Positions 42,736-59,547 of a stretch of DNA of 64,000 nt are shown piece by piece. The translations under genes and the position numbers were made by a program. Source of the stretch: Bacillota bacterium (GTDB taxonomy: Bacteria; Bacillota; DTU030; DUMP01). Position 1 is the first letter of the stretch, and every line of letters starts with the position of its first letter. The notes beneath the pieces were generated by a model, which was not told where the DNA came from, searched no databases, and saw only the letters and a program-made list of their open reading frames with translations. Location of the stretch: assembly GCA_030154105.1 (NCBI GenBank), contig JASKKP010000001.1, positions 1 to 64,000 on the forward strand, in the 5' to 3' direction.

Positions 42736-45060
42736 ATGGATGTCGAGAGGATCCTGCGGGCAATTACCACGCACCCATGTTATCAGGGTCAGATAACCTA
42801 CCGGCGGCACCTGCCCGGGCGGTCGGCGGCCTACGCCGAGCCGGCCGGACCGCTGCCGCCCGAGCTTCAGGCCAGCCTGGAGCGGGCCGGGGTCAGGCGC
42901 CTTTACACCCACCAAGCGGCGGCGCTCGACGCCGCCCGGCGAGGGGAGAACATAGTGGTGGTGACGCCTACGGCCTCCGGCAAAACGCTCTGCTACAACC
43001 TGCCCGTTTTGGCGGAGCTTCTCACCGACCCGCTTGCCCGCGCCCTGTATATCTTTCCTACCAAGGCCCTCACCCAAGACCAGCTTAAGGCGGTGCAGCG
43101 CTTCGGCCTTGTGCCGGCTGCCGTCTATGATGGAGATACCCCGGACACGGTAAAGGCGGAGATCAGGGAGACCGCCCGCATCGTTCTCACCAACCCGGAC
43201 ATGCTGCACCTGGGGGTTTTGCCCAATCATCTCAAGTGGCACGATTTTTTGGCCCACCTAAAGTTTGTAGTCATCGACGAGATCCACGCCTACCGGGGCG
43301 TATTCGGCACGCAGGTGGCGCACATCCTGCGCCGGCTGCGGCGCCTAGCGGCGCACCACGGCGCGAACCCGCAGTTCATCCTCACTTCGGCCACCATTGC
43401 TAACCCGGCCGAACATGCCGAGCGCCTAACGGGGCTGCCGGTGACGCTCATCGAAGGAAGCGGTGCCCCGCAGGGCGCGCGGGACTTCCTCTTTTGGCGC
43501 GTCCCGCAGCATACCACCTACCTGCGCGAAGTAGTGTGGCTCCTCGAGGTGCTCCTTCAGGAGCAGGCGCGCACCATTGCTTTTGCCCGTGCCCGCCAGG
43601 TGGTGGAGCGTATCCTGCGCCAGGTGCGCCGCGAGCTTGCGCCTCCTCTGGCGGCCAGGCTCACGGCCTACCGTGGCGGCTACCTCGCGGTGGAGCGGCG
43701 CGAGATTGAACTTGAGCTTTTTTCCGGCCGGCTTTTGGGCGTGGTGGCTACCAACGCGCTGGAGCTCGGTATCGACGTGGGGGAGATGGAGGTCTGCCTC
43801 ATTGCAGGCTACCCGGGAACCATCGCTTCCACCTGGCAGCAGGCGGGGCGGGTGGGCCGGCGCGAGCGCGATTCTTTGATTATCTTTATCGCCGTGGCCA
43901 ACCCCTTGGACCAGTACTTCCTGCGCCACCCGGAGGCGTTTTTTGAGAAGCCAACAGAGAGCGCCCTGATCGACACGGCCAACCCTTACCTCCTCCTGGG
44001 GCAGGCCCGCTGCGCCGCCCAGGAACTGCCCCTCACTCCGGCCGACCTTGCGCTCTGGGACCCGGTGCTGGTAGATCTGCTTACCATCTTGGAGGAGGAC
44101 GGCCAGGTGACGCGCGCCGACGGCCGCTGGTTTTACACGGGTCAGGACTACCCGGCGGAAAAGGTGAACCTGCGCACTACCGGGCGCACCTTCCAGCTGC
44201 GCGACCGGGGGGAGAAGAACCGGCTGGTGGGTACCATGGACGGACACACCGCCTTCTCCGAAGCTTATCCCGGGGCCATCTACCTGCACCAGGGCGAGAC
44301 GTACCGGGTGGAGGAACTGGACATTCCCGGCGAGACGGCTTATCTTCGCCGGGTAGACGTGGATTACTACACGATGGTGGGGCGCGAAAAGAGCACGGAA
44401 ATCCTGGAGACGCTGGCGGAGAAGGAACTTTACGGCCACCGCTTCGCCGTGGGGAGGCTCCGGGTACGCACGCGCGTCACCGGATATATTAAGAAGCACG
44501 AACTCACCGGCCAGGTGCTGGGCGGGGAGAGTTTATCTTTGCCCGAAGAGGTTCTGGAGACGGTAGGCATGTGGTTTTCGCCGAGCGCAGAGCTTACGGC
44601 CAGGGTCCGGGCGGCGGGGCTCGACCTTATGGGCGGACTGCACGCCGTAGAGCACGCCGCCATCGCCCTTCTTCCCCTCTACGCCATGTGCGACCGGGGT
44701 GACGTAGGCGGGCTTTCCACCATCCTCCACCCTCAAACGGGGGAACCGACGGTGTTTATTCACGATGCCTACGAGGGCGGGGTAGGTTTTGCCGAGAAGG
44801 GCTACGAAAAGGCCGAAGAACTCCTCGCCGCCACGCTGGAGGCGGTGGCGGCCTGCCCGTGCGAGAACGGCTGCCCGAGCTGCATTCACTCACCAAAATG
44901 CTCCAACTTCAACCGTCCGCTGGATAAAGAAGCGGCGATCTGCCTTTTACACGGTCTCTTGGGCCGCACGTACGAGCCGGCGGCCCCGGCCGGGATAAAG
45001 GCCCTGAAGCGGGCGAACTTAACCCGCCTCTTGGGGCGCCTGAAGGGGGCGACGGTATGA
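42736..45060 (+). CDS. mrfA: DEAD/DEAH helicase with C-terminal DUF1998/zinc-binding region (YprA/MrfA-like)
   Basis: TPTASGKTLCYNLPVL, IDEIHAYRG, QQAGRVGRRERDS, CPCENGCPSCIHSPKC. Confidence 0.92.
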   Translation: MDVERILRAITTHPCYQGQITYRRHLPGRSAAYAEPAGPLPPELQASLERAGVRRLYTHQAAALDAARRGENIVVVTPTASGKTLCYNLPVLAELLTDPLARALYIFPTKALTQDQLKAVQRFGLVPAAVYDGDTPDTVKAEIRETARIVLTNPDMLHLGVLPNHLKWHDFLAHLKFVVIDEIHAYRGVFGTQVAHILRRLRRLAAHHGANPQFILTSATIANPAEHAERLTGLPVTLIEGSGAPQGARDFLFWRVPQHTTYLREVVWLLEVLLQEQARTIAFARARQVVERILRQVRRELAPPLAARLTAYRGGYLAVERREIELELFSGRLLGVVATNALELGIDVGEMEVCLIAGYPGTIASTWQQAGRVGRRERDSLIIFIAVANPLDQYFLRHPEAFFEKPTESALIDTANPYLLLGQARCAAQELPLTPADLALWDPVLVDLLTILEEDGQVTRADGRWFYTGQDYPAEKVNLRTTGRTFQLRDRGEKNRLVGTMDGHTAFSEAYPGAIYLHQGETYRVEELDIPGETAYLRRVDVDYYTMVGREKSTEILETLAEKELYGHRFAVGRLRVRTRVTGYIKKHELTGQVLGGESLSLPEEVLETVGMWFSPSAELTARVRAAGLDLMGGLHAVEHAAIALLPLYAMCDRGDVGGLSTILHPQTGEPTVFIHDAYEGGVGFAEKGYEKAEELLAATLEAVAACPCENGCPSCIHSPKCSNFNRPLDKEAAICLLHGLLGRTYEPAAPAGIKALKRANLTRLLGRLKGATV

Positions 45061-46112
45061 GCCTGTTTGAGCGGCTGGCCAGGCTTCGCGCGGAACGGGC
45101 CGAGGCTACAAGGACGCCGGAGGCCGATAGCGCGCCCTCGGTAGCCTGCTCCGCGCCGGAAAGCTTCAAAGCGCAGATGGCAACCCCAGAACGGGTGCCG
45201 GACGAAGGGACCTTCGCGCGCCGGCCGCCGGTACCGGCCGCCCGTTTCGGGGCCTCGGAGGTCCAAACCGCCTGCGGTTCCTTCTGCCGCCGGACGCGCC
45301 CGCTGGCTGCAGCTCTCCCGGCCTTCCTGGGCCGGCCGGAGCGGATTCTGGCCAACCTTAAGCTTATCTGGGGCATAGGACCGGTCACGGAGGCGGCCCT
45401 TAAAGCTCAGGGGGTAAGGAGCCTCAGCGACCTTACGGAACACCCGCGCTGGGGGGAAGAGGCGCGGCGCGTGCTGGCGCTCGTCGATGCCCGCCGGGCG
45501 GCAGAGCTCAGGCGGCGCGGAGCGAGCGACCAAGAGCTCCTCGGCCTCTTTCAACCGCACGAGGTGGCCTGCCTGGACATCGAAACTACTGGCCTTTGGG
45601 GCAACCAGCCGCTCTTTCTGGTCGGGCTTTTGCGCCTGGAGGGGGGACGGCCCGTGCTGGAACAGCTCCTGGCCCGCCACTACTCGGAGGAGAAGGCCCT
45701 CTTGACCTACCTGGCAGAAGTCCTGGCCGGGGTGAGGGCGGTGATTACCTTCAACGGTAAGCGCTTTGACCTTCCTTATATCGAGCAGCGCTTTATCTAT
45801 CACGGCCTGCCGCAGCCTAAGGAACTCTTCCATGTGGACCTTTATTTTCATGCCCGGCGCCTGCCGCAGGCCTTGCCGAACCACCGCCTGGTTACGCTGG
45901 AGGCGTATCTCTTAGGGACAGAGCGCGAAGGGGATGTACCGGGGTACCTGGTTCCTACCATTTACCACCGTTTTGTGCGCACGGGCGAACCGGAGCTGCT
46001 CCTGCCTGTTCTGGAGCACAACGCCCAGGATGTGCTCTCCCTGGCCCGATTGCTTTACCTGGTAGGGCAGGAAGGGGAGGGAGGTTGCGGCGATGTCGTC
46101 CGCTCAGGTTGA
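45057..46112 (+). CDS. mrfB: DnaQ-like 3'-5' exonuclease (YprB/MrfB-like)
   Basis: ACLDIETTGLWGNQPLFLVG, HNAQDVLSLARL; ATGA overlap with mrfA. Confidence 0.9.
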   Translation: MSLFERLARLRAERAEATRTPEADSAPSVACSAPESFKAQMATPERVPDEGTFARRPPVPAARFGASEVQTACGSFCRRTRPLAAALPAFLGRPERILANLKLIWGIGPVTEAALKAQGVRSLSDLTEHPRWGEEARRVLALVDARRAAELRRRGASDQELLGLFQPHEVACLDIETTGLWGNQPLFLVGLLRLEGGRPVLEQLLARHYSEEKALLTYLAEVLAGVRAVITFNGKRFDLPYIEQRFIYHGLPQPKELFHVDLYFHARRLPQALPNHRLVTLEAYLLGTEREGDVPGYLVPTIYHRFVRTGEPELLLPVLEHNAQDVLSLARLLYLVGQEGEGGCGDVVRSG

Positions 46113-48330
46113 GCGCTTAAAGGCGGCCTTAAGCGCGGCGCTCGCCGGCTTAGAAAGAGAGCGCCCCTACGGTGAGGCCCTGGCGGCGCTGGCCCAGGGC
46201 CTTTTTCTCTGGCGGCTCAAATTAAACGTGGGTCCTGAAGAGCTGACTAGCTGGGGCGGTCCCTTTGCCGCGCCGGTTTGGTGCGGCCGTGCCCCGCAAG
46301 CGGTACGCACCCTACAGGCGGAACTTACGGAGCTCGCTCCGTCCAACGAGGACCTCGGCCTGGCCTTGGAGGCGCTGCATTGGGAGCGCGGGGGCGGGAG
46401 CAACAAAGAGCGGGGGGTGTTCTATACCCCACCCCAGTTGGCCCGTTTCATGGCGCGCCTCGCAATTCGACTGTATTTTCAGGAACTGGCCCAGCCCCGT
46501 AGCTCCGGCCGGCAGCCGGGTTCACCGGTGCATCTTGCGCCGAGTTTTCGCCTGGCCGATCCGGCGGTAGGGGCCGGGGCCTTTCTCGCCGCCGCCCTGG
46601 CCGAACTGGCCGCCCTTCCCGCCGACTTAAGGGGCGGACGGAGCGCGCTGGAGCTTCTCTCTTTCCTGGCGGGGCGGGACCGCGATCCGGAGGCGGTGTA
46701 CCTTACGCGCGTGCGCCTCTGGCTCCTGGTGGCGGAGGAAATAGCCCGGCACCGCTTTTTCCCGCCCCTTGCCGCCGTCCGCCCGGGGGACAGCCTGCGC
46801 GAGGAGCCGGAGCCGGCCGACATCATCCTGGAAAACCCGCCTTACCTCCGCCAGGAAAGCTTGAGCGCCGAAGAAAAAGACGCCCTGGCGGCGCGCTTCG
46901 GCCGCATCGTGCCCCGGCAGTCCGACCTTTATGCCTATTTCCTGGCCAACCTCAAAAATGAACTTAAGCCGGGTGGGGTGGCCGTTTTGGTGACGCCGGT
47001 GGCCTGGCTGGAGGTGGACTACGGGCGGGCGCTCCAAGAGGAACTCCTTAGAAATTTTGAGATCCCTCTCATCATCACTTCGGCCTGTGAGCGCTGGTTC
47101 AGTCAGGCGGCGGTCCACACGGCGGTGAGCGCCTTCATCCGGCCGGAGGAGGCGGGCCGGCGGCCACGGCCGCGGCGCCCGACGGCTCTGGTGAATCTAA
47201 ACCGGCCCCTTGCCGTGGCGGCAGAGGAAGTAGTGGCGACCGGCGGCCGATTTCCTCCGGGGTGGAACGTGGGTGAGACCTTCCGGGTGGTAAGCGTGCC
47301 GCGGACGGAGCTCGCCACCCTTACCCGGCGGCAGCGGCCGGTGCGCGCCCGCTGGGGAACGCTCCTCAGGGCGCCGGGGGCCTATTTTGCCCTTCACGCC
47401 GCCGCGCCGGACGCCTGGGTGAGCGCAGGTGAAGTGGCCGAGGTTACGCGGGGTTTTACCAGCGGAGCCAATGCCTTCTTCTTCGTGCGCGATGTAACGG
47501 CGGAAGTGGAACCACGTGTTCTGGCGGAACTCGGAGTCACTGCCGGAAGCGGCCTCCGGGTTATTGCGGCGCGGGGCGGGCGCCGGCACTTCGCCGTGGA
47601 AGAGCGTTTTCTTTTTCCCCTAATTAAATCGCCGCGGGAGGTAGCGGGATATACCATCCGCGAGGAGGAACTCACGTGGCGGGTGCTCCTCCTACCGCCG
47701 GATGAAGAATACGTACGGGGCCTGCGGGTCGCGGACTACATCCGCTGGGGGGAAAGGGAGGGCTTCGGCCGGCGGGCCACTACGCGTTCCCGCTCCTTTT
47801 GGTGGAGCCTGCCCAAACTCCTGCCGCCTCAGGTTTTGGCGCGGCAGTTCTACGACCGGCGCTTTAACTTTCCCTATAACCCCAGCGCTGCGCTCTGCGA
47901 CCATACCTTTTATTACCTCACCGGCTGCGCCGACCCGGAGCTTTTTGCGGCGCTTTTAAACAGCACCCTGACCTATTTCCACGTAGAGCTTTGGGGCCGC
48001 TCCAACATGGGAGACGGAGTCCTCACCTTTTACGGCCCGGAACTTTCCGACCTGCCGCTGCCTAAGCCGGGGCTTTTTGAAGGAGAGCGTGCCGGTGAGC
48101 TGAAGCGCCTCTTCCGCCGCCTTGCGGCGCGGGCGGTCCTTCCCATAGAAGAAGAAGTAGAAAGGAGCGACCGGCGCGACCTGGACCTCATCGTCCTGGC
48201 CGGTATGGGACTTACGGGCCTTAGTGCGGTTTCCCTTCTGGCCGAGGTGTACACCGCCCTTACCAAGCTTGTAGCCGAGCGCCTGGAGCGCTCGCGCGGC
48301 GGCCCGGCGCCCGGGGACGAAGATCGATGA
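46093..48330 (+). CDS. Eco57I-type N6-adenine DNA methyltransferase with TaqI-like C-terminal specificity region
   Basis: Motif I LADPAVGAGAFLAAAL, catalytic ENPPYLRQESLS; 20-nt overlap with mrfB. Confidence 0.88.
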   Translation: MSSAQVERLKAALSAALAGLERERPYGEALAALAQGLFLWRLKLNVGPEELTSWGGPFAAPVWCGRAPQAVRTLQAELTELAPSNEDLGLALEALHWERGGGSNKERGVFYTPPQLARFMARLAIRLYFQELAQPRSSGRQPGSPVHLAPSFRLADPAVGAGAFLAAALAELAALPADLRGGRSALELLSFLAGRDRDPEAVYLTRVRLWLLVAEEIARHRFFPPLAAVRPGDSLREEPEPADIILENPPYLRQESLSAEEKDALAARFGRIVPRQSDLYAYFLANLKNELKPGGVAVLVTPVAWLEVDYGRALQEELLRNFEIPLIITSACERWFSQAAVHTAVSAFIRPEEAGRRPRPRRPTALVNLNRPLAVAAEEVVATGGRFPPGWNVGETFRVVSVPRTELATLTRRQRPVRARWGTLLRAPGAYFALHAAAPDAWVSAGEVAEVTRGFTSGANAFFFVRDVTAEVEPRVLAELGVTAGSGLRVIAARGGRRHFAVEERFLFPLIKSPREVAGYTIREEELTWRVLLLPPDEEYVRGLRVADYIRWGEREGFGRRATTRSRSFWWSLPKLLPPQVLARQFYDRRFNFPYNPSAALCDHTFYYLTGCADPELFAALLNSTLTYFHVELWGRSNMGDGVLTFYGPELSDLPLPKPGLFEGERAGELKRLFRRLAARAVLPIEEEVERSDRRDLDLIVLAGMGLTGLSAVSLLAEVYTALTKLVAERLERSRGGPAPGDEDR

Positions 48331-48417
48331 CGGGCTGGGAGGATTTGTACCGCTACTGAGCGAATGGAACATTCCAGAGGAACGCACCGCTAAAGCATAT
48401 GACGAGGGGGATGAAAG

Positions 48418-51400
48418 GTGTTATCCGTGCTGGAGACATGCCGACTGCGGCCGGAGATCGAGGCCGGTACATTTAACCCGGAGGTATTTACGGCAGCACT
48501 TGGACCGGTGATTGAATTTTATCGTACCGGCCGGAGCGTCATCGACAAGATTTACACCGATGCCCACCTCTTCTTCCGTGAAGCTACATACCCCACTCAG
48601 GGCCTTCGCTTGACGTTGGGCGAAGTGTTTGCCCGAATTGCCGGGGATATGCTCGTGCCCGCCATCCACCGGCTGGAGACGGCTTTTGGTGGCGGCAAGA
48701 CTCATACCCTTATAGCCTGCACCCACATCGCCTTCCGGGGAACGGAACTTCAAGACGTTACGGCCGACCTAATCGACCCGAAGCTTCTTCCAGCGCCCGG
48801 CTCCGTGGCCGTGGTCGGCGTTGCGGGAGAGGAGATTCCGGTCCACAAGCCTAAGGGGGACGTATTGGTACCCTATACTCTTTGGGGTGAAATTGCCTAC
48901 CAAATTGGCGGTGAAAGCCTCTACCGTCAAGTCGAAGACGAGGCGACCTCTTACGCCGCCCCGGGCAAAACATATTTTGACACCGTGTTCGGGGGCAGGA
49001 AGGTTCTCATCATGCTCGACGAGCTGGCCCAATACGCAGCGCGCCTTGAAGCGGCCCGGCCAGATGGGGCGAACCAACTGGCTGCTTTCTTGATGGCCCT
49101 ACATGGCTATGCCCGCAGTCACCCTGGTATCGCCATTGTGCTGACCCTGGCCAGTGCTACAGATGCCTTTGCCAAGCAGACGCAGCGTTTGGCGGAGCTT
49201 TTAAGCCAAGTGCGCGGCGACGAAGTCGGCGAGGACGATGCTTTAGCCTTGGGGGAGAGAGCCGTACAGGGGGTGACCAGCGTGGTAGCGCGGGATGCCG
49301 TGCAGGTGATACCGGTTCAGGCCGCGGAGATTTCTTCCGTACTGGCAAAACGGCTTTTCCTTGCCATAGACCGTCAGGCAGCCCGTGAAACTGCCGCGGA
49401 ATACATGGAGATGTACCGGCGGAACACAGCCCTCCTCCCGGAGGAAGCCTGCCGCGAAGACTTTAAAGAGCGTATGGTGGCGACCTATCCCTTTCACCCT
49501 ACCCTGCTCGACTTTCTGAACGAAAAGCTGGCGGAAGCCGAGACTTTCCAAGGGACGCGGGGGGTCTTGCGGGTTTTGGCTGCGGCGGTCCAGAGCCTGT
49601 GGCAAAAGCGGCAGGCCGTGCCGATGATCCATACCTGCCATCTGGACCTGCGTTCGGAGCGAGTGGTAAACGAAATTTTCGGGCGCACTGGTTCCTCCGA
49701 CCTTCTTCCAATTCTAAATGCCGATGTCGGTAGTGTAGATACCGGCAAACTAGAAGGTGGCCAAAGCAATGCCGAGCTCGCCGACCGGCACAACCCGCAC
49801 CCGCAGGGCCATCCCTATCACGAATACACCTGGAGAACGGTCTTCCTTCACAGCTTGGTGGGCCGCGAAGAGGGATTGGATTCGAAGATCTTCGGCCTCA
49901 CCGAGCCCGAGGCTCTCTTTGCCGTGTCCTTCCCGGGCCTTACGCCGCCGCAGGTACGCATTGCGCTGGAGAGGATTAACGATGAGGCCTTTTACCTCCG
50001 GTGCGAAAAGGGAAGATACTTTGCCAGCCCTGAGCCCACGCTGAACAACGTTCTGGCCCGCATCCGCAAGACGGTTACCGAAAGGCAGATCAAAGAGCTT
50101 CTAGAGGAGATGGCGCGAAAGATTATACAAGGGCGGGTGGATCTCTTCCACGTTGAACACGATGTTACGCTGCCGGAGCACCTGCCTGATGGGCTGGGAA
50201 AACCCGCACTGGGAATCGTTCCTCCTACAGCCGAAGCTATAGATGTTGAGGCTGTGGTGACGACTAAAGGTTCCAACAAGCCACGCCTGGAGCAAAACTT
50301 GGTTTTCCTCCTTGTGCCGGAAACCGTAAGGGTGCAAAATTTTGAGCAGCAAGAAGTAATATCCACCTCTACTGTCCAGACGCAGGACCTTCGCCGTCGC
50401 ATCGAAGATTTAGCCCGGCAGGTCGAAGCTATTCGCCTTTTAACGGAAAACCCGCGAAAATACGGGGTGAATCCGGCGCGCCTGAGCGAAGACGAGTTCC
50501 GAGAGCGGTACGGAAGTCGGGGCAACGACTTAGAAACTGCCGTTGCCGGCCTGTATAACAGCCTTTATTACCCTGCCGGAGGCCAAATCGTGCGCCGGGA
50601 GATCAAGTCCGGAAGCGGTGAAAGCGGCGTGGCCTTCATCGAGCAAATTCGCCAAATACTTCTTCAGGACGGCGAGCTGATCACGAGCGGCAGTACCACC
50701 AAAGCTGACCTTACGAACCTGAGCAAACTGTTCTTTGAACAGGGAGACGTTATCAGCCTGGAAAAACTGCAGGAGAACTTCTGCCGCATTAGGAGCTGGC
50801 CGATTCTCGAGAACCCGACAGTCCTGGAGCAGATTGTCCGCGCCGGCGTGCAGCAGGGCTTTTGGTGTGTTTTCCGTATGGATGATCCGCTCAGCGCCAG
50901 GCCGACCGAATTCTATCACCAAGGGCACGAAATTCCTCTGGGCGCCGACCTTACTCAAAAAGGCTACAGTTTGGTGACCGCGCAGGGAGCTAAACAGCGG
51001 GGCTGGCTAGAAACGAGGAAAATTGATCCTCGCGAATTGGAAGAAGGCGTGATTTACGCCGTAGCCAGTGAAGATGCCGCCACCGTCGAAAAGGTAGCAG
51101 AGAGAGTTGCGGAAAAGTATGGAGACGTGCCGGCGGAAGATGTGGAAGAGGCTATAGCTACGCTTGTCCGGACCGGGCGCGTATACCTCTACCAGGGGAT
51201 GCCGGACGAGAAGGAGAAGCCGAACCTGATCTACGGGGCCCGGGCAACTCTTTATACCCTGCAACCCGGCGACGTCCTTATCACTCCTGCCCAGGCGGCT
51301 GCGCGCGGCTGGACGAATTCCGAAGCACGCCGGCTTATTCTCACGGGACAGGAAGGAGCGAAGAAATTTCTTCCTCTCCTTCGCCGCCTCGGCAGCATTT

Positions 51401-51639
51401 ACAACCGGGGAGCCCGGTCGGCCATCGAGGCTCTAGACTTAGCCAACCTGGAGCTTCCCGCGGGAGGCACGCTGCGCCTCCAGCTCAGCAACGTTACGCC
51501 GGAATCGATGAAGGCCCTGGGTGAGCTCTTCGAGGTGCTAAACGGTGTAGCGAAAGAAGGCGACGACACGGAAGTTTTCTTGGAAATAGCAGATCCTGAC
51601 GAGTCATGCCCGCTGATTCAGGAACTTAAAAAAGAGTAA
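48418..51639 (+). CDS. DUF499 family ATPase (anti-phage-associated)
   Basis: Walker A ETAFGGGKTHTLIA, Walker B KVLIMLDELAQYAARL; adjacent to DUF1156 methylase and helicase. Confidence 0.88.
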   Translation: MLSVLETCRLRPEIEAGTFNPEVFTAALGPVIEFYRTGRSVIDKIYTDAHLFFREATYPTQGLRLTLGEVFARIAGDMLVPAIHRLETAFGGGKTHTLIACTHIAFRGTELQDVTADLIDPKLLPAPGSVAVVGVAGEEIPVHKPKGDVLVPYTLWGEIAYQIGGESLYRQVEDEATSYAAPGKTYFDTVFGGRKVLIMLDELAQYAARLEAARPDGANQLAAFLMALHGYARSHPGIAIVLTLASATDAFAKQTQRLAELLSQVRGDEVGEDDALALGERAVQGVTSVVARDAVQVIPVQAAEISSVLAKRLFLAIDRQAARETAAEYMEMYRRNTALLPEEACREDFKERMVATYPFHPTLLDFLNEKLAEAETFQGTRGVLRVLAAAVQSLWQKRQAVPMIHTCHLDLRSERVVNEIFGRTGSSDLLPILNADVGSVDTGKLEGGQSNAELADRHNPHPQGHPYHEYTWRTVFLHSLVGREEGLDSKIFGLTEPEALFAVSFPGLTPPQVRIALERINDEAFYLRCEKGRYFASPEPTLNNVLARIRKTVTERQIKELLEEMARKIIQGRVDLFHVEHDVTLPEHLPDGLGKPALGIVPPTAEAIDVEAVVTTKGSNKPRLEQNLVFLLVPETVRVQNFEQQEVISTSTVQTQDLRRRIEDLARQVEAIRLLTENPRKYGVNPARLSEDEFRERYGSRGNDLETAVAGLYNSLYYPAGGQIVRREIKSGSGESGVAFIEQIRQILLQDGELITSGSTTKADLTNLSKLFFEQGDVISLEKLQENFCRIRSWPILENPTVLEQIVRAGVQQGFWCVFRMDDPLSARPTEFYHQGHEIPLGADLTQKGYSLVTAQGAKQRGWLETRKIDPRELEEGVIYAVASEDAATVEKVAERVAEKYGDVPAEDVEEAIATLVRTGRVYLYQGMPDEKEKPNLIYGARATLYTLQPGDVLITPAQAAARGWTNSEARRLILTGQEGAKKFLPLLRRLGSIYNRGARSAIEALDLANLELPAGGTLRLQLSNVTPESMKALGELFEVLNGVAKEGDDTEVFLEIADPDESCPLIQELKKE

Positions 51640-51654
51640 CGTGAGGCACAGAAC

Positions 51655-52260
51655 ATGGCAAACCATACTACGGCGTTAGAGTTGGAACGAGACCTTCAGC
51701 ACCGGATCCGTTCATTTCTGGCTCGTGCTCCGTGGGTGCTGCGAATAACCGAATATAAGGATAAACCTGCACCGGTTCTCGTAGTCAAAGAAAGGGTTTA
51801 TTCCGGACCGGCACAAACGGAGAACCGGGAGAGAATTGAGAAAACCGTACTTAAAGACCGCGGGCTGCTGTATGGCCAGCCCCTTCGTCGTTGTCTGCCG
51901 GTAGTGAGCACTATTGTAAGTAGCGTTTGCGATGAGGCCCGTATCCCTTTGGGGCTGGAACGCTTCTTGAGCCCTGGGCGCATCACGTTTCGCGGGAACC
52001 TTCCTCTGGACGAGGAGGCCGGGGCTAAGCTTGCGCTCATCTTTAAGCTGAGAGAAGGCGTCCAGGATATGGACCGGGTGGAGCTCATGGCCTGGCGTGT
52101 GCAGCGCTTCAGTAAAGAGGAGGCAATTTACTGGCTGGCGCGCGCGACCTTGTACGGCGAGGCTGCCAGCCGCTGGGCACGGGCCGGCATGCGGATCATG
52201 CTGGGAGGGCAACCCGGAGATAAGGCCATACTCCAGATGCTGGAGAAGCTGCGCAGGTAG
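51655..52260 (+). CDS. uncharacterised small protein of DUF499/DUF1156 locus (DUF7680-like)
   Basis: Position between DUF499 and DUF1156 genes; LELERDLQHRIRSFLARAPWVLRITEYKD. Confidence 0.6.
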   Translation: MANHTTALELERDLQHRIRSFLARAPWVLRITEYKDKPAPVLVVKERVYSGPAQTENRERIEKTVLKDRGLLYGQPLRRCLPVVSTIVSSVCDEARIPLGLERFLSPGRITFRGNLPLDEEAGAKLALIFKLREGVQDMDRVELMAWRVQRFSKEEAIYWLARATLYGEAASRWARAGMRIMLGGQPGDKAILQMLEKLRR

Positions 52261-52276
52261 AGAGGGCGATCAAGTA

Positions 52277-55200
52277 ATGGACGAACGTAGAAGCAAGAGT
52301 GACCTTCGGCTCATTGAGGCGGGGTTTCCTTGCCATCAGGTAGGTGCTGAAACCAAACGAGAACGAGATACAGGGAAGGCACCGCCGACCCATAGGCTTC
52401 ACGTCTGGTGGGCGCGCCGGCCGCTGACGGCCAGCCGTGCTGCGGTTCTCGCCTCCCTGCTCCCTGCCGGAACGGATCCGGATTGGTTTTTACGGCAGCT
52501 GGGGATCGAGAAAGTGCAGGCTATAGTGAACGGGGAGCCGTGGACGCTGGACGAAGGGCTTATCGATTGGATCAAGAAAGACATTTCGGCAAGGGAAATA
52601 TTGGAAGTGGATTCTTTTGTTGCAAAGGCGCTTCAGCGAGAACAGGAGAACCGGAAGACCATCAGAAACCTGGTTCAAATGGTTATCCGCAAAAGACCTT
52701 TCCTTAGCGAGCATTCTGTTATCCAGCGACTGGCACAGCTTGGCAAGCCACTTCCCGAGCCACTGCCCGGTGAGGGCGAAGCCCTGTGTGTTCAGCGCGT
52801 GGCTGCCGATCCAGCGTGGTTCAAAGATCTATTGGAGATTGCGTCAAACGTAGGCATCCGTGTTCCAAATCTGTATGGATATGCACGCGCTTACAGGCGC
52901 CAGCCCGAATGGCAGTCACAAGACATAATCGTGCTAGATCCTACGGCTGGCGGGGGCTCAATTCCGTTCGAAGCGTTACGGCTTGGATGCCGAGTGATCG
53001 CAAATGATCTCAATCCGGTCGCCGTTGTGATTCTGCATGCTACCCTGGACTATCCTGCCCGTTACGGTCCCGACCTAAAAGACGAGATCAAAAAGTGGGG
53101 GCACAAGCTGGTTACTGCCTTAGATGAAAAGGCCGAATGCATATTCCCCCGTACTTTTCCATTACCACAAAGTGAACGGCGGGTCTTAGAAGCACATTTA
53201 AGCAAGTGTCCCGCCCTAGTCCCCTTGTATGACCGAGAGGATACGACCACATATTTGTTCGCTCGCCAAGTCACCTGCCCGCATTGTGGCGGAGAAGCCC
53301 CGCTCCTCAACACGTGCTGGCTGTCCAAAGAAGGCGCGAAGTGGGGCGTGCGCATTGTCACCGACGGCCGGCAGCGCGGCGGCAAGGTTCGCTTTGAGAC
53401 CTACCGCGTCCATGGTGACCGGGGACCGAACGGGGAGGACCCGAACTTTGCCACGGTAAATGGCGGGGTCGGCATTTGCGTTCACTGCCGCCAGGCCATT
53501 TCGGCTGAAGAAATCAAGGCCCAGGCCCGGGGAGAATCGCCACATGGGCGCTGGCAAGACCGGCTGTATGCGGTGGTGGCCGTTCGCTACCAACCTAAGT
53601 TGGACAAGAACGGAAGACCGATGCGTTACAAAAGCGGCGAGCGGGCCGGCGAGATTATAACGGAGAAGGTGCGCTTTTTCCGGCCGCCCAATGAGCAGGA
53701 CCTCGCCGCCTTGGCCGAAGCCGAAAGGCGCCTTAAAGAACGCTGGCCGGAGTGGGAGCGGCAGGGACTTATACCGACCGAGAACATCCCTAAGGGGCAC
53801 AAAACATTGGAATTGCTTCGCGTGGGGGTGACCCGCTGGTGCGACCTCTTTACTCCGCGCCAGCTCTTGGGACACCTGATCCTGGTAGAGGAGCTTAACC
53901 GCCTCAAACCCCAAATTCTAAAGGAACTGGGTGAGGAGCGCGGCCGGGCGGTGGTAACGTATCTGCAGTTTGTGATTGATAAGTGCATAGATTACAACAG
54001 CAAGCAGACCAGGTGGATACCACAACGGGCGATCGTTTCTGGAACTTTTGGACGACATGACTTTTCCTTGAAGTGGACCTTTGGCGAGATGATATTCACA
54101 GGTCCCCACTCCGGCGCTGCCTGGGCATTATCAGAGGTGCTTGATGCATACGCGGGGATAGCCGAGCTACTGGCACCCCTGCGCGAGAAGTTAGACGGTG
54201 CTCCACCCCCGGTAAAAATACTTTGTGGTACGGCTGCTCACCTGGAACTACCTGCAAAGTCAGTAGACCTGGTTTGCATTGATCCTCCTTATTACAACAA
54301 TGTGCAGTATGCTGAGCTTTCAGACTTCTACTATGTGTGGGAGAAGCGTACCCTTCAAGATCTGTATCCTACTCTTTTTCAGCGGAGGCTGACCAACAAA
54401 ACCGATGAGGCTGTGGCTAACCCTGCTCGAGACGGTTCGCGTTCTCAAGCCTCTCGCAGATACGAGCAACTGATGAATGAAATCTTCAGCGAATGCCGGC
54501 GGGTGCTCAAAGATGACGGCATTATGACAGTTATGTTCACTCACAAGACGCAGGAAGCATGGGAAGCACTTATTCGTTCCCTCATTGAAGCTGGTTGGGC
54601 CGTTACCGCTTCGTTTCCGGTAGAATCGGAATTCGAGCACTCCCAGCACATTATGGAAAATGCTGCGGCCGCAAGTTCCATCTTTCTCACTTGTCGTAAG
54701 CGAGAAGAAAAGGGCAACCAACCGGCTACCTGGATCGCTTTCGCCGGTTCGGGGGTCGCCCAGAAGGTGCGTGAGGCGGTACGCGAAGGCTTAAAGGAAT
54801 TCGAGTTACTGCACCTGAATCCCGTGGACGAGATGGTGGCGAGCTATGGCCGGGCGCTACGCGTGCTTTCTGAGCATTGGCCGGTTTTGGACGGCGACGA
54901 GCTGGTAAGCCCGACGCGGGCCATGAACGAGGCCAGCGCTGTCGTGGCCCAGTACCAAATCAGCCGGCTCACCGGGGGGCGCCTTAGAGTGGACGACCTT
55001 AATCCCGAAGCGGCCATGGCGCTGACCCTCTACGGCATCTTCGGCTTGGCCGACTTCCCGTATGACGAAGCTCTTAACCTTTCGCGGGCGCTGAACATCA
55101 CCCTGGTGGGTGCGGCCGGCAATTACCGGGTAAACGGCCGGATGATCGGCATTAGCGAGGAGACAGGGGGCAGGCGAAGCAAGGAAAGTAAGCCTGAAGA

Positions 55201-55489
55201 AAGCGGATACTATGCCCCGGTTCTTCGCAAGGGTTCTCGTCTGCGTCTGGCTCTGCCCGAGGAACGCAGTGTAAGGCGTCTCGAGGCTCCGCAGACGGAG
55301 TGGGATGTCCTCCAGGGGCTCATTATGGCCTTCCGTGATGGCGATGTCCCGGTTGCCCGGAGCTATTTGGAGCGGCACGCGGAAGGAAAGCAGCAAGTGA
55401 TCCTCGATCTTCTTTCGGTCTGGGCCGCGAAGGCGAGCGACGAGAAGTTACGCCAAGAAGCAGAGGCCATGCTCTTTGGGCTAAGGTGA
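52277..55489 (+). CDS. DUF1156 domain DNA adenine methyltransferase
   Basis: DUF1156 N-terminus RHLHVWWARRPLTASRAAV-type, LDPTAGGGSIPFEALRLG, DPPYYNNVQYAELSDFYYVW; start ATG 52277 within ORF 52097..55489. Confidence 0.92.
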   Translation: MDERRSKSDLRLIEAGFPCHQVGAETKRERDTGKAPPTHRLHVWWARRPLTASRAAVLASLLPAGTDPDWFLRQLGIEKVQAIVNGEPWTLDEGLIDWIKKDISAREILEVDSFVAKALQREQENRKTIRNLVQMVIRKRPFLSEHSVIQRLAQLGKPLPEPLPGEGEALCVQRVAADPAWFKDLLEIASNVGIRVPNLYGYARAYRRQPEWQSQDIIVLDPTAGGGSIPFEALRLGCRVIANDLNPVAVVILHATLDYPARYGPDLKDEIKKWGHKLVTALDEKAECIFPRTFPLPQSERRVLEAHLSKCPALVPLYDREDTTTYLFARQVTCPHCGGEAPLLNTCWLSKEGAKWGVRIVTDGRQRGGKVRFETYRVHGDRGPNGEDPNFATVNGGVGICVHCRQAISAEEIKAQARGESPHGRWQDRLYAVVAVRYQPKLDKNGRPMRYKSGERAGEIITEKVRFFRPPNEQDLAALAEAERRLKERWPEWERQGLIPTENIPKGHKTLELLRVGVTRWCDLFTPRQLLGHLILVEELNRLKPQILKELGEERGRAVVTYLQFVIDKCIDYNSKQTRWIPQRAIVSGTFGRHDFSLKWTFGEMIFTGPHSGAAWALSEVLDAYAGIAELLAPLREKLDGAPPPVKILCGTAAHLELPAKSVDLVCIDPPYYNNVQYAELSDFYYVWEKRTLQDLYPTLFQRRLTNKTDEAVANPARDGSRSQASRRYEQLMNEIFSECRRVLKDDGIMTVMFTHKTQEAWEALIRSLIEAGWAVTASFPVESEFEHSQHIMENAAAASSIFLTCRKREEKGNQPATWIAFAGSGVAQKVREAVREGLKEFELLHLNPVDEMVASYGRALRVLSEHWPVLDGDELVSPTRAMNEASAVVAQYQISRLTGGRLRVDDLNPEAAMALTLYGIFGLADFPYDEALNLSRALNITLVGAAGNYRVNGRMIGISEETGGRRSKESKPEESGYYAPVLRKGSRLRLALPEERSVRRLEAPQTEWDVLQGLIMAFRDGDVPVARSYLERHAEGKQQVILDLLSVWAAKASDEKLRQEAEAMLFGLR

Positions 55490-55522
55490 GCCTGTCTCTC
55501 GGCGCTTAGGGGGAATGCGTGA

Positions 55523-58500
55523 GTGGCTTCAACCGATGTCTCTTCTGACCAGGGACTGCGCTCCAGGAACTGGCTTCTCTCTTACCGTACTTCTTCAACC
55601 ATCATCGATGGGCGTCCGGTGGACATCCTGCACGATTTCTACGTGCCCGCCCTGAGCCTCGCAGTACAGTACGATCGCGTTGCCGGTTACTTTCGTTCCT
55701 CTTCCCTGGCAGCGGCTTCACAGGGCTACTCGGCCTTTGTTGGCAGGAAAGGGAAGATGCGCCTTATCGTTGGCACCGACCTGGACCCAGAAGACGTGCG
55801 CGCCATCCTTGCCGGCGATGCTGAACGGCTGGCGGCCAGGCTGCGCGGCGAGCTGGAAAGCCCTGAAGCTTGGCCGAAAAACGTTAAGAATGGGGTTACG
55901 TTACTCGCCTGGATGGTGGCGCACGGATATCTAGAGGTGCGTGTGGCCTTTCGACTTCACCGCATAACTGGCGAGCCGCTCCCATTTGATGCGGTTGATG
56001 ACGGCTATGTTCATGAGAAGTGGTTTATACTTCGCGACGAGTTTGGCAATCGGCTTTATGGCACGGGAACGCTCAATGAGTCGAAGACGGCGCTCGTCCT
56101 CAATGCGGAAAACATCGACGTTCATTGCGACTGGTGGGGGGAGATGGAGTGCCGGAGAATCGATGAAGCCGAGCAGGCTTTCGAGAAGTTGTGGGAAGGA
56201 CGTGTTCCCCACCTGCCGGTTTTGACCCTTCCAGAAGCGGTTAAGCGGCACCTGGTAAGTTTGGCTGACGGCATCGACTACCCATTAGAGGTAGACGGTA
56301 CTAGTACCGTGCCGAGAAAGATGAGACCACCCGGGGCATTAGAACGTCTGCGTTTTGCCGTCCTGCGCGATGCCCCACGCATGCCGGGCGGCCGTTTCGT
56401 GGGCCTCGAGACAGCTCCCGTGGCGCCCTGGCCCCATCAGGCGATGGTGGCGCGCAGGCTGGTACGGACCTGGCCTTATTCGTACCTGCTTTGCGATGAA
56501 GTCGGCCTGGGAAAAACCATTGAAGCTGGCTTAGCCTTTCGCTCCTTGTATCTGTCAGGGCTGGCGAAACGTATTTTAATTGCGGCGCCGGCGTCCCTTA
56601 CAAACCAGTGGCAACGCGAGATGGCTTCCAAGATGTTGCTCTCCTTCGGTTTGGCGCGCGCTACGCCGGAAACCGTACATGAATATATTTTCCCCGTGAA
56701 GGCCAACCGGAAAGCACAGTCACTCTACGAGCCGGACCTGGTCATTATCTCCACAGGGCTTCTGGCCAGGCGCGAGCGGGCCATAGGGCTTCTGGCTTCG
56801 CCGCCGTTTGACATCGCACTGGTAGATGAGGCCCATGCCTTAAGGCGGAACAACCCAACGGCCGGCTGCAAGGCCAGCCCGCGCTACGGTGAGCTGTACA
56901 CCTCTGTCCGTGACTGCCTCCGCCCCAGAACGCGGGCCCTGTGGCTCGCGACGGCTACCCCCTTGCAACTTCATCCCGTGGAGGTATGCGACCTCCTGGC
57001 CCTAACCGACCGCGTTGGGCCGTTCCAGTTTGACCCGACACTGATGCTAGAGTACTATGAGATCCTCGGGAAACTTGTTCGGGGGGAGGAGCCGGAGAAA
57101 GAAGAATGGGAATTTCTTCGGCAAAGTATCCGCGCCCTCGAGGTTCAGGATAATGTGCAGTACAGGTTTATTCAGGAAAAGGTCGCGGAAAAGCGCATAG
57201 CCATTACGCTCCGCCAATGGCTAGAATACGGAATCATCCCTAGAGGCAAAGACCGCGAGCTTATTTACCGCGTGATCTTTAGCGCTTCGCCCTTAGGGCG
57301 GGTAAGGCTGCGCAACACCCGGGGCCTCTTGGAAATTTACCGTGAGGAGGGACAGTTAAAGGAGAATCTGCCGCGCCGCCATATTATGCCGCTGCGCCCC
57401 ATAGAATTTAGTCCCTTGGAGAGAGATATATATGAAAGCCTAGAGGAGTACTGCCGTGGCCTGGCGCGCCAGATCCGGCACCACGGGGACCGGCGGGCGC
57501 AGCAAATGGTAAGTTACCTGCTCAGCTTTTTGCGCTTACGCTTCGCTTCGAGCCTTTATGCCTTTCACGAAACCTTGCGACGCCGCCTGGAAAAGGTGGA
57601 AGCTACGCTTAGGTACGGGCTGCAAGAGGAGGTTGAAGAAGAAGCTGAGACAGCGGCAGATCTCCAAGATAAGGTTTTTGGCGGCGAGAGCGAAGGAGAT
57701 CAGGAAGTTTTCGGGTTGCTACTACGGAACCGAACCCCGGCCGATCTTGAATGGGAGCGAGCAGCGCTTCAGGGTATGCTAGAGAGAATGAAAGACCTTA
57801 CTGGGCCTTCATCTAAGATGACGGCACTTCTGGAGCTTCTCGAGAAGCGGCGGGATCGGAAGACGCGGCGCATTCGGCAAACGGTGATCTTTACTCGATT
57901 TTACGACACGCTGCAAGATATTGTTAGGCGGTTACGTCACGTTGATCAGGAAATGTTAATAGGTACCTACTCAGGGCAGGGAGCCGAGTATTACGATCCT
58001 CAGACTGGCTCCATGGTAAAAACGGAGCGCGAGAGGGTTAAGGAACGCTTTTTACGTGGGGAGATAGACGTACTCGTTTGTACAGATGCTGCGGCAGAAG
58101 GCTTAAACTTACAGACGGCCGACGTTCTTATCAACTTTGATCTGCCCTGGAACCCCATGAAAGTAGAGCAGCGAATTGGCCGTATTGACCGCATCGGGCA
58201 GAAACATGAGGAAGTCTACGTGTGTAATCTCTTTTATGCTAATAGCGCTGAAGAAGCGGTATACAGCACTCTGCTGCACCGTTTGAGCCAAGCTAATCTT
58301 GTGGTCGGTCCACAGCAGTTTTCGCTTCTCCCTGTTCTCCCGAATGAGTTTAGAGAATTGGCGGAGGGGTCCCTTAATCCGGAAGAACTATACCAACGAG
58401 CGCTGAAACGCATGGAGGAGCAGCGCCGCAATAACGAAAAAATGGAGATACCTCCCAGAGAGCTCTACCAGATTTACCTACGCGAGGCTCAAAAGGGCGA

Positions 58501-59431
58501 GCGGTGGCCGGCTCCGGTGAAGCTCGCAGACATCTGGGAGGCGCTTAGTAGTTCCCAATACTTAAGCCAGTTGGGATGTGAAGTAAAGGGCGGACCGGAA
58601 AGACCGATGCTGATCTTAAGAGGTGTTTCCGGCGTCCCGGATGGGGCGATTCTGACTACGTGTCGAAAGCTTTATGAAGAGGGCTTAGGCGAGGACGAGA
58701 GGCGAGTCCATTTTGCCTCGTATGGTGAACCATTTTTCGAGGCCGTGCTGGAAGAAATCGTGCAATTTGAGCTTCCGGCCTGCGTGCGGCGGGTGGCCGT
58801 ACCCGTTCCCGGGATCGAAAACTGTGAGCTGGTGGGCTATGCAGTAGCTTGCCGCGGAACCGGCGGCCTTCGGGAGATACGTTTTGTTCTTAAATGGAGC
58901 GATCTGAAAGGGTTGGAACTGGCCGAAGAGGAAGCATTGACGGAAGGGGAACTTGAGCCGCTGCGGGAAGAGCTTAAACGTGTGGCGCAGGAAGAATTTG
59001 AGCTCTGCAACGCGGCCGGCCGAATTGAACGCTTTAATGTCCGGGCGGCACGGGCCCAGGAGTTGCTTAACCTGCTGACGATAGAGAGCCTGTTAAAAGC
59101 ACGTGCTCCTTCCTTTGGTCAAGGGGCTCTCTTTTACCCGGTGCTGCGGGATGTTGAGTCGCTGCTTAATGATCGAAGCAAAATAATAGTAAGCGACGTT
59201 CCTGCCGATGAACTTAGGGCGATTGCTGAAGATGTATTGTTTGACTGCGAGGTGCCGGCAGTAGGGAGTAGGGCTTCCATAACTATAAATCGCATTTTGT
59301 TACACACATCCATGGACGCTGCCGAGCGAGTGGTGGACGGCATGAAGGAGCGCAGGAGTAAACTTCGTGTGGATAGGGTAATAAGCCGCCTGCGGCGGGA
59401 GATGCGCGCCAGGCTGCAACAACTTAGTTAG
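55523..59431 (+). CDS. SNF2-family helicase with N-terminal PLD-like (HKD) domain
   Basis: HEKWFILRDEFGNRLYGTGTLNES; CDEVGLGKTIEAGLAFR, VDEAHALRR, EQRIGRIDRIGQKHE. Confidence 0.92.
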   Translation: MASTDVSSDQGLRSRNWLLSYRTSSTIIDGRPVDILHDFYVPALSLAVQYDRVAGYFRSSSLAAASQGYSAFVGRKGKMRLIVGTDLDPEDVRAILAGDAERLAARLRGELESPEAWPKNVKNGVTLLAWMVAHGYLEVRVAFRLHRITGEPLPFDAVDDGYVHEKWFILRDEFGNRLYGTGTLNESKTALVLNAENIDVHCDWWGEMECRRIDEAEQAFEKLWEGRVPHLPVLTLPEAVKRHLVSLADGIDYPLEVDGTSTVPRKMRPPGALERLRFAVLRDAPRMPGGRFVGLETAPVAPWPHQAMVARRLVRTWPYSYLLCDEVGLGKTIEAGLAFRSLYLSGLAKRILIAAPASLTNQWQREMASKMLLSFGLARATPETVHEYIFPVKANRKAQSLYEPDLVIISTGLLARRERAIGLLASPPFDIALVDEAHALRRNNPTAGCKASPRYGELYTSVRDCLRPRTRALWLATATPLQLHPVEVCDLLALTDRVGPFQFDPTLMLEYYEILGKLVRGEEPEKEEWEFLRQSIRALEVQDNVQYRFIQEKVAEKRIAITLRQWLEYGIIPRGKDRELIYRVIFSASPLGRVRLRNTRGLLEIYREEGQLKENLPRRHIMPLRPIEFSPLERDIYESLEEYCRGLARQIRHHGDRRAQQMVSYLLSFLRLRFASSLYAFHETLRRRLEKVEATLRYGLQEEVEEEAETAADLQDKVFGGESEGDQEVFGLLLRNRTPADLEWERAALQGMLERMKDLTGPSSKMTALLELLEKRRDRKTRRIRQTVIFTRFYDTLQDIVRRLRHVDQEMLIGTYSGQGAEYYDPQTGSMVKTERERVKERFLRGEIDVLVCTDAAAEGLNLQTADVLINFDLPWNPMKVEQRIGRIDRIGQKHEEVYVCNLFYANSAEEAVYSTLLHRLSQANLVVGPQQFSLLPVLPNEFRELAEGSLNPEELYQRALKRMEEQRRNNEKMEIPPRELYQIYLREAQKGERWPAPVKLADIWEALSSSQYLSQLGCEVKGGPERPMLILRGVSGVPDGAILTTCRKLYEEGLGEDERRVHFASYGEPFFEAVLEEIVQFELPACVRRVAVPVPGIENCELVGYAVACRGTGGLREIRFVLKWSDLKGLELAEEEALTEGELEPLREELKRVAQEEFELCNAAGRIERFNVRAARAQELLNLLTIESLLKARAPSFGQGALFYPVLRDVESLLNDRSKIIVSDVPADELRAIAEDVLFDCEVPAVGSRASITINRILLHTSMDAAERVVDGMKERRSKLRVDRVISRLRREMRARLQQLS

Positions 59432-59496
59432 AGGAAGCCGAAGAGGCCAAGCACAGGAAGATCGAAAATGCCTCGCGAAGTGCCAGGATTCTCCAC

Positions 59497-59533: not shown

Positions 59534-59547
59534 CGAACATACGTTTT
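59534..59547 (+). promoter_or_regulatory. LexA (SOS) box
   Basis: CGAACATACGTTTT fits B. subtilis-type consensus CGAACRNRYGTTYC except final base; located just after the -10 and before the start codon. Confidence 0.82.

Follow-up and report, generated by a model that had tools for sequence, protein, structure and literature searches.

A probable restriction-modification-like, BREX-related gene block with DUF7680 in place of DUF3780, and solitary copies of its small gene on phage and mobile DNA

Four large genes follow one another on the forward strand between positions 48418 and 59431 of the window, the whole stretch of 64,000 nucleotides from a Bacillota bacterium analysed here, and they raise the question whether they form a self-contained defence system and, if so, of which kind. 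A preliminary description had proposed a methylation-linked phage-defence locus made up of four co-directional open reading frames (ORFs), all of which were recovered in place. The combined evidence of ORFs, Pfam, PADLOC and NCBIfam gives the order DUF499 ATPase, DUF7680 protein, DUF1156 methylase and HKD-SNF2 helicase, and profile searches assigned each of the four proteins to a family.

The first gene (48418-51639, forward strand) encodes a HmaC/BrxC-like STAND/AAA+ ATPase of 1073 aa with a C-terminal DUF7744, which matched PF04465 (E 1e-29, 103.5 bits against a cut-off of 23), PF24897 (E 5e-42) and, in PADLOC, HmaC (232 bits) and DUF499 (122 bits). Its Walker A motif GGGKTH (residues 91-96), noted earlier, and its Walker B motif IMLDEL are both intact. 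The 201-aa product of the second gene (51655-52260, forward strand) had been listed as an unknown of DUF7680-like character; the gene is real, and the protein is a full-length member of PF24728 (DUF7680; E 5e-35), predicted by AlphaFold2 to be a small alpha+beta accessory subunit. The third gene (52277-55489, forward strand) encodes a DUF1156 amino-methyltransferase of 1070 aa (PF06634, E 1.5e-16, 60.7 bits against a cut-off of 24; PADLOC HmaB, 236 bits). Motif I (DPTAGGG) and motif IV (DPPY, residue 669, as previously read) are present, together with two CxxC pairs within the target-recognition insert. Its start had been placed at an overlapping GTG (52097), but relatives align at ATG 52277, 16 nt past the DUF7680 stop codon, which is the likely start. 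The fourth gene (55523-59431, forward strand) encodes a HKD(PLD)-SNF2 helicase-nuclease of 1302 aa, whose earlier reading is borne out by an HKD motif (HEK...GTGTLNES, residues 164-187), a Walker A motif DEVGLGKT at residue 325 and a motif VI QRIGRIDRIGQ at residue 883. The PbeA and PLD models align to it from about residue 33. It scored 322 bits against NCBIfam phospholipD_antiphage, under the equivalog cut-off of 1100, and 215 bits against PADLOC PLD_Helicase; none of the three core proteins reached an NCBIfam equivalog cut-off. A palindrome upstream of the DUF499 gene, TGGAACATTCCA, was set aside, as it is not conserved across 12 relatives.

Comparison with a genome of the same genus (G138) defines the limits of the block. 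By BLASTN, G138 matches the window up to position 48341 and again from 59481; in G138 the two matches are separated by about 91 bp. Since both sides of a nearly empty site are matched, the 11.1-kb insert (48342-59480) corresponds to exactly the four-gene block. The G+C content is about 0.55-0.60 within the block and 0.65-0.67 in the flanking 2-kb bins. An Eco57I-type methylase gene directly upstream (46093-48330) had been considered a fifth component. This assignment was ruled out by the empty sites: the gene is present in eight of eight family genomes, and in three of them (G021, G243 and G218) it adjoins the imuB-like gene while the block is absent. It is consequently part of the vertically kept chromosomal background and lies outside the system.

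The neighbours of the insert are genes of DNA repair, MrfA/MrfB-like upstream and ImuB-like and DnaE2 downstream. A position between MrfA/MrfB-like genes with an Eco57I methylase on one side and an SOS-type imuB-dnaE2 operon on the other could indicate that the block is an accessory of DNA repair or replication restart working with these neighbours. The empty sites largely refute this reading: in three other family genomes the repair neighbours adjoin each other with no block between them, and in G138 they lie next to the imuB promoter region; moreover, homologous blocks elsewhere have unrelated surroundings and the G+C content of the block differs from that of the neighbouring DNA. A repair accessory is thus very improbable. 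Instead, gene families, motifs, gene order and insertion support the proposal of a methylation-linked, restriction-modification (R-M)-like locus, and the block is likely to be a whole R-M-like phage-defence system that was acquired horizontally and belongs to the DUF499-centred (BREX-related/Hma) kind.

Two features of the surroundings were observed in addition. The MrfA-like DEAD/MZB helicase, the MrfB-like RNase_H_2 exonuclease and the Eco57I-type methylase genes overlap as a single run (42736-48330), and as the methylase is conserved in eight of eight family genomes, the mrfAB repair operon may here include a DNA methylase. The block is inserted just upstream of the imuB-like/dnaE2 promoter region, which contains an SOS (LexA) box-like sequence, CGAACATACGTTTT, at 59534-59547; closely similar sequences occur in four family genomes.

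The kind of system to which the block belongs has been described before. The name Hma was given to the DUF499/DUF1156/SNF2 trio in 2021 (PMC8565338), and a later study classed it as BREX-related Types 1-3 (Rakesh & Krishnan 2026, PMC12839542). The Type-2 plan comprises DUF499, a DUF1156 methylase, an HKD-SNF2 protein and, in 98% of cases, a stand-alone DUF3780 (PMC12839542). The block agrees with this plan in its DUF499 ATPase, its DUF1156 methylase, N6-type by motif and with a CxxC-bearing insert, its N-terminal HKD domain fused to SNF2, and a single small additional gene between those of the ATPase and the methylase. However, this small gene is DUF3780 there and DUF7680 here, the core proteins fall on a separate branch, and the helicases measure 889-924 aa in DUF3780 systems and 1265-1377 aa in complete copies of the long DUF7680 form. 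The 201-aa protein gave no Pfam match to DUF3780 even at E 10, and none was found elsewhere in the genome.

Other known kinds are further removed. The ATPase and methylase are HmaC- and HmaB-like, and the PADLOC Hma models outscore those for DUF499 and DUF1156, but the published Hma/Type-1 system has three genes without DUF7680 or DUF3780 and a helicase that lacks an N-terminal HKD, whereas four genes and an HKD helicase are found here. In BREX Type 3, a BrxC-like ATPase, a methylase and a SNF2-type helicase are proposed homologues (PMC12839542); the insert, however, contains no PglZ, BrxA, BrxB or BrxF-type gene, and the lack of a PglZ match among its four genes separates it from Type-3 BREX-related systems as well. 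Similarity to DISARM is confined to the helicase, which matches the DrmD models (about 204 bits in PADLOC, 235 bits in NCBIfam) under the cut-off of 610, and neither DrmB nor DrmC was detected. The earlier exclusion of DISARM and of PglZ-bearing BREX therefore holds. Judging from its gene families, the system appears to be R-M-like and close to Type-2 BREX-related systems, with DUF7680 in the place of DUF3780.

The view that the locus is poorly described is accordingly right in one part. While the trio is already named, the literature searched describes neither the DUF7680 branch nor the solo copies on phages discussed below: no paper on DUF7680 was among the matches listed, DUF7680 is absent from the main text of Rakesh & Krishnan (PMC12839542), and DUF3780 was met in a single paper only. 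With the block, a widespread defence class gains a branch that appears to have no label yet. A four-gene restriction-like cassette was reportedly tested experimentally by Gao in 2020, and may correspond to the DUF3780 form of the system.

How DUF7680 relates to DUF3780 was approached through predicted structures. The AlphaFold2 model of DUF7680 (pLDDT 91.6, pTM 0.88) begins with an alpha element, strands 27-32, 41-50 and 63-72, helix 74-89 and a short helix, and continues with strand 114-118, helices 120-133, 139-150, 154-165 and 169-184, and a further alpha element. The DUF3780 model (pLDDT 84.7) consists of strands 15-20, 28-33 and 46-52, helix 54-74, strand 85-90 and helices 91-104, 109-121, 124-138 and 147-157. 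Read element by element, both models contain nine elements in the same order, beta-beta-beta-alpha-beta followed by four helices, which fits the four-stranded sheet and five helices already described for DUF3780 (PMC12839542). Gene order is likewise the same in nine DUF3780 loci as in DUF7680 systems. Common predicted topology and identical gene position indicate that DUF7680 is probably the counterpart of DUF3780. Sequence homology is only suggestive, as the profile-profile match was not significant, either directly (E 0.17) or with the group of short DUF7680 proteins as a bridge (E 0.011), reversed decoys giving 0.08-0.36. No match to the DUF7680 model was found at E<=0.001 in the PDB or among viral structures (BFVD). 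DUF3780 has no definitive homologue according to the published study (PMC12839542), and DUF7680 would be a probable structural relative for it.

Trees of the methylase, DUF499 and helicase proteins bear on whether the system is simply an ordinary Type-2 BREX-related one in which DUF7680 is a very divergent DUF3780. In all three trees the systems with long DUF7680, those with DUF3780 and the Type-1/3-like systems each occupy one side of a branch with 100% bootstrap support; the trees are unrooted and contain several long branches, so the branching order of the groups is not fixed. Every DUF7680 and DUF3780 helicase in the set, that of the block included, has an HKD motif, and none of the eight Type-1/3-like helicases sampled has one. 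This shared HKD helicase, gene order and predicted topology speak for an ordinary Type-2 system. In contrast, the separate, fully supported groups with long branches between them and the lack of a significant sequence match between the small proteins make this assignment somewhat doubtful, although a real possibility, and the choice between a subtype and a new type is partly a matter of naming. Systems with a short DUF7680 of 139-168 aa (L029, L034, L035 and L036) form their own branch in the three trees (84-99% bootstrap); this short form was also seen on the viral contigs L196-L199. The relationship between the short and the long DUF7680 group is clear (97.5%).

In the phylum, to which Moorella and Selenomonas genomes also belong, 398 genomes were sampled and 19 gave a PF24728 match; the positive loci examined there keep the order DUF499, DUF7680, DUF1156 and HKD-SNF2 as far as the contigs extend. 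An alignment search of one genome per species across 84,980 species yielded 56 DUF7680 loci, 53 of which have a DUF499 and/or methylase partner adjoining in the same order, and the remaining three are solo. This conservation is far above chance. By their record titles, the 53 partnered loci come from Bacillota, Desulfobacterota, purple sulfur Gammaproteobacteria, Verrucomicrobia, Synergistetes and others; one of them, in Thiobaca trueperi (L082), has no helicase within 6 kb downstream. Presence of the system is patchy within a single genus and in this resembles that of mobile defence genes. Moorella thermoacetica DSM 21394 carries one DUF7680 system and one DUF3780 system. In other lineages, six loci (L071, L074, L080, L083, L087 and L090) have differing extra genes between the core genes, read from their translations as Abi_2-like, OLD-like ATPase, HKD and toxin-antitoxin-like pairs; variable cargo has also been reported for BREX-related systems (PMC12839542).

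The families to which the four proteins belong suggest a division of labour in defence. The DUF1156 methylase would mark host DNA, the probable mark being N6-methyladenine at a single motif; the DUF499 ATPase would assemble a surveillance or scanning complex on DNA, and the HKD-SNF2 protein would translocate along unmarked DNA and cut it. DUF7680 would probably act as a small adaptor or reader that couples modification status to the effector or licenses it, a role already proposed for DUF3780. A lone DUF7680 made in excess by a phage could then occupy the binding site and leave the complex idle.

Solitary DUF7680 genes do indeed occur on phage and mobile DNA. In IMG/VR, one copy (L039, 64% identical) lies among Erf, helicase and VRR-NUC-type genes and another (L040/L097, 49% identical) has phage methylase, RuvC and MazG genes and a tail-spike-like gene around it. 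Two bacterial assemblies, of Thermoactinomyces daqus (L066) and of a MAG labelled Armatimonadetes (L062), carry DUF7680 without partners amid phage or plasmid-type genes; elsewhere, both also contain the system or, where a contig breaks off, its DUF499-DUF7680 end (L072 and L057). A Desulfobacterales MAG supplies a further solo copy (L084). On the DUF7680 tree, these five solo copies require five label changes, and well-supported branches make at least four of them unavoidable. L066 clusters with system copies from Thermoactinomycetaceae (100/99) and L039 with Pelotomaculum (98/89); the clade that contains L097 and L084 consists mostly of deltaproteobacterial and purple-sulfur copies. The tree is consistent with four to five independent captures, its pattern being that expected from repeated capture from hosts. 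Beyond these collections, tblastn searches of INPHARED (phages) and PLSDB (plasmids) gave no DUF7680 match, PHROGs holds no family for DUF7680 or for the solo DUF3780 of L162, and a survey of the Moorella class revealed no genome with a second, separate DUF7680 copy.

DUF3780 also stands alone on five viral contigs, two of which (L162 and L169) carry it beside terminase and portal genes, while L167, L168 and L171 are viral by database label only. As a control, the DUF499 (24 loci) and methylase (20 loci) genes of DUF3780 systems in the same collection were never solo, barring fragments and contig ends. Solo DUF3780 (5/16) thus differs from solo partners (0/~40) with a Fisher p of 0.001, a rough value since the loci lie partly on the same contigs.

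These solo genes could be passive, functionless remnants of whole phage-carried systems. Whole systems do occur on some viral contigs, and on L202 (9361-10375) and L203 (8838-10350), both viral, an intact DUF7680 is followed by a DUF1156 stub of the first 75-115 residues and then by unrelated sequence. Elsewhere, on L039, L040/L097, L162 and L169, genes of phage replication or packaging surround the solo gene, and no partner gene is traceable within the stretch examined; the solo copies retain intact reading frames and the invariant residues of the family at 45-65% identity, and in DUF3780 systems it is the small gene that is found alone and not its partners. Passive remnants are therefore unlikely. 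Alternatively, the solo gene may serve another phage function. The distribution rather suggests that phages carrying a lone DUF7680 may use it to disarm the system. We tentatively propose, as a plausible reading, that DUF7680 and DUF3780 constitute one licensing or reader subunit family of HKD-type BREX-related systems, repeatedly captured by phages and mobile elements as an anti-restriction decoy. Such a decoy, captured from hosts, would switch off host restriction or win immunity from it. We know of no earlier anti-defence strategy against DUF499-centred systems, and the decoy, if true, would be the first. The phage solo copies suggest that the system may be controlled through a single small subunit, and they would provide ready-made reagents for testing this.

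Further fragments of the system were noted on viral and phage-like contigs. DUF1156 fragments on L204 and L205 were discarded, as they overlap larger antisense ORFs and look degenerate. The DUF7680 gene of L202 sits just after an endolysin gene. L201 (9992-12364), a phage-like contig with a RecA-like gene, encodes a lone DUF1156 methylase that is full-length and belongs to the short-DUF7680 type, possibly a self-protection methylase.
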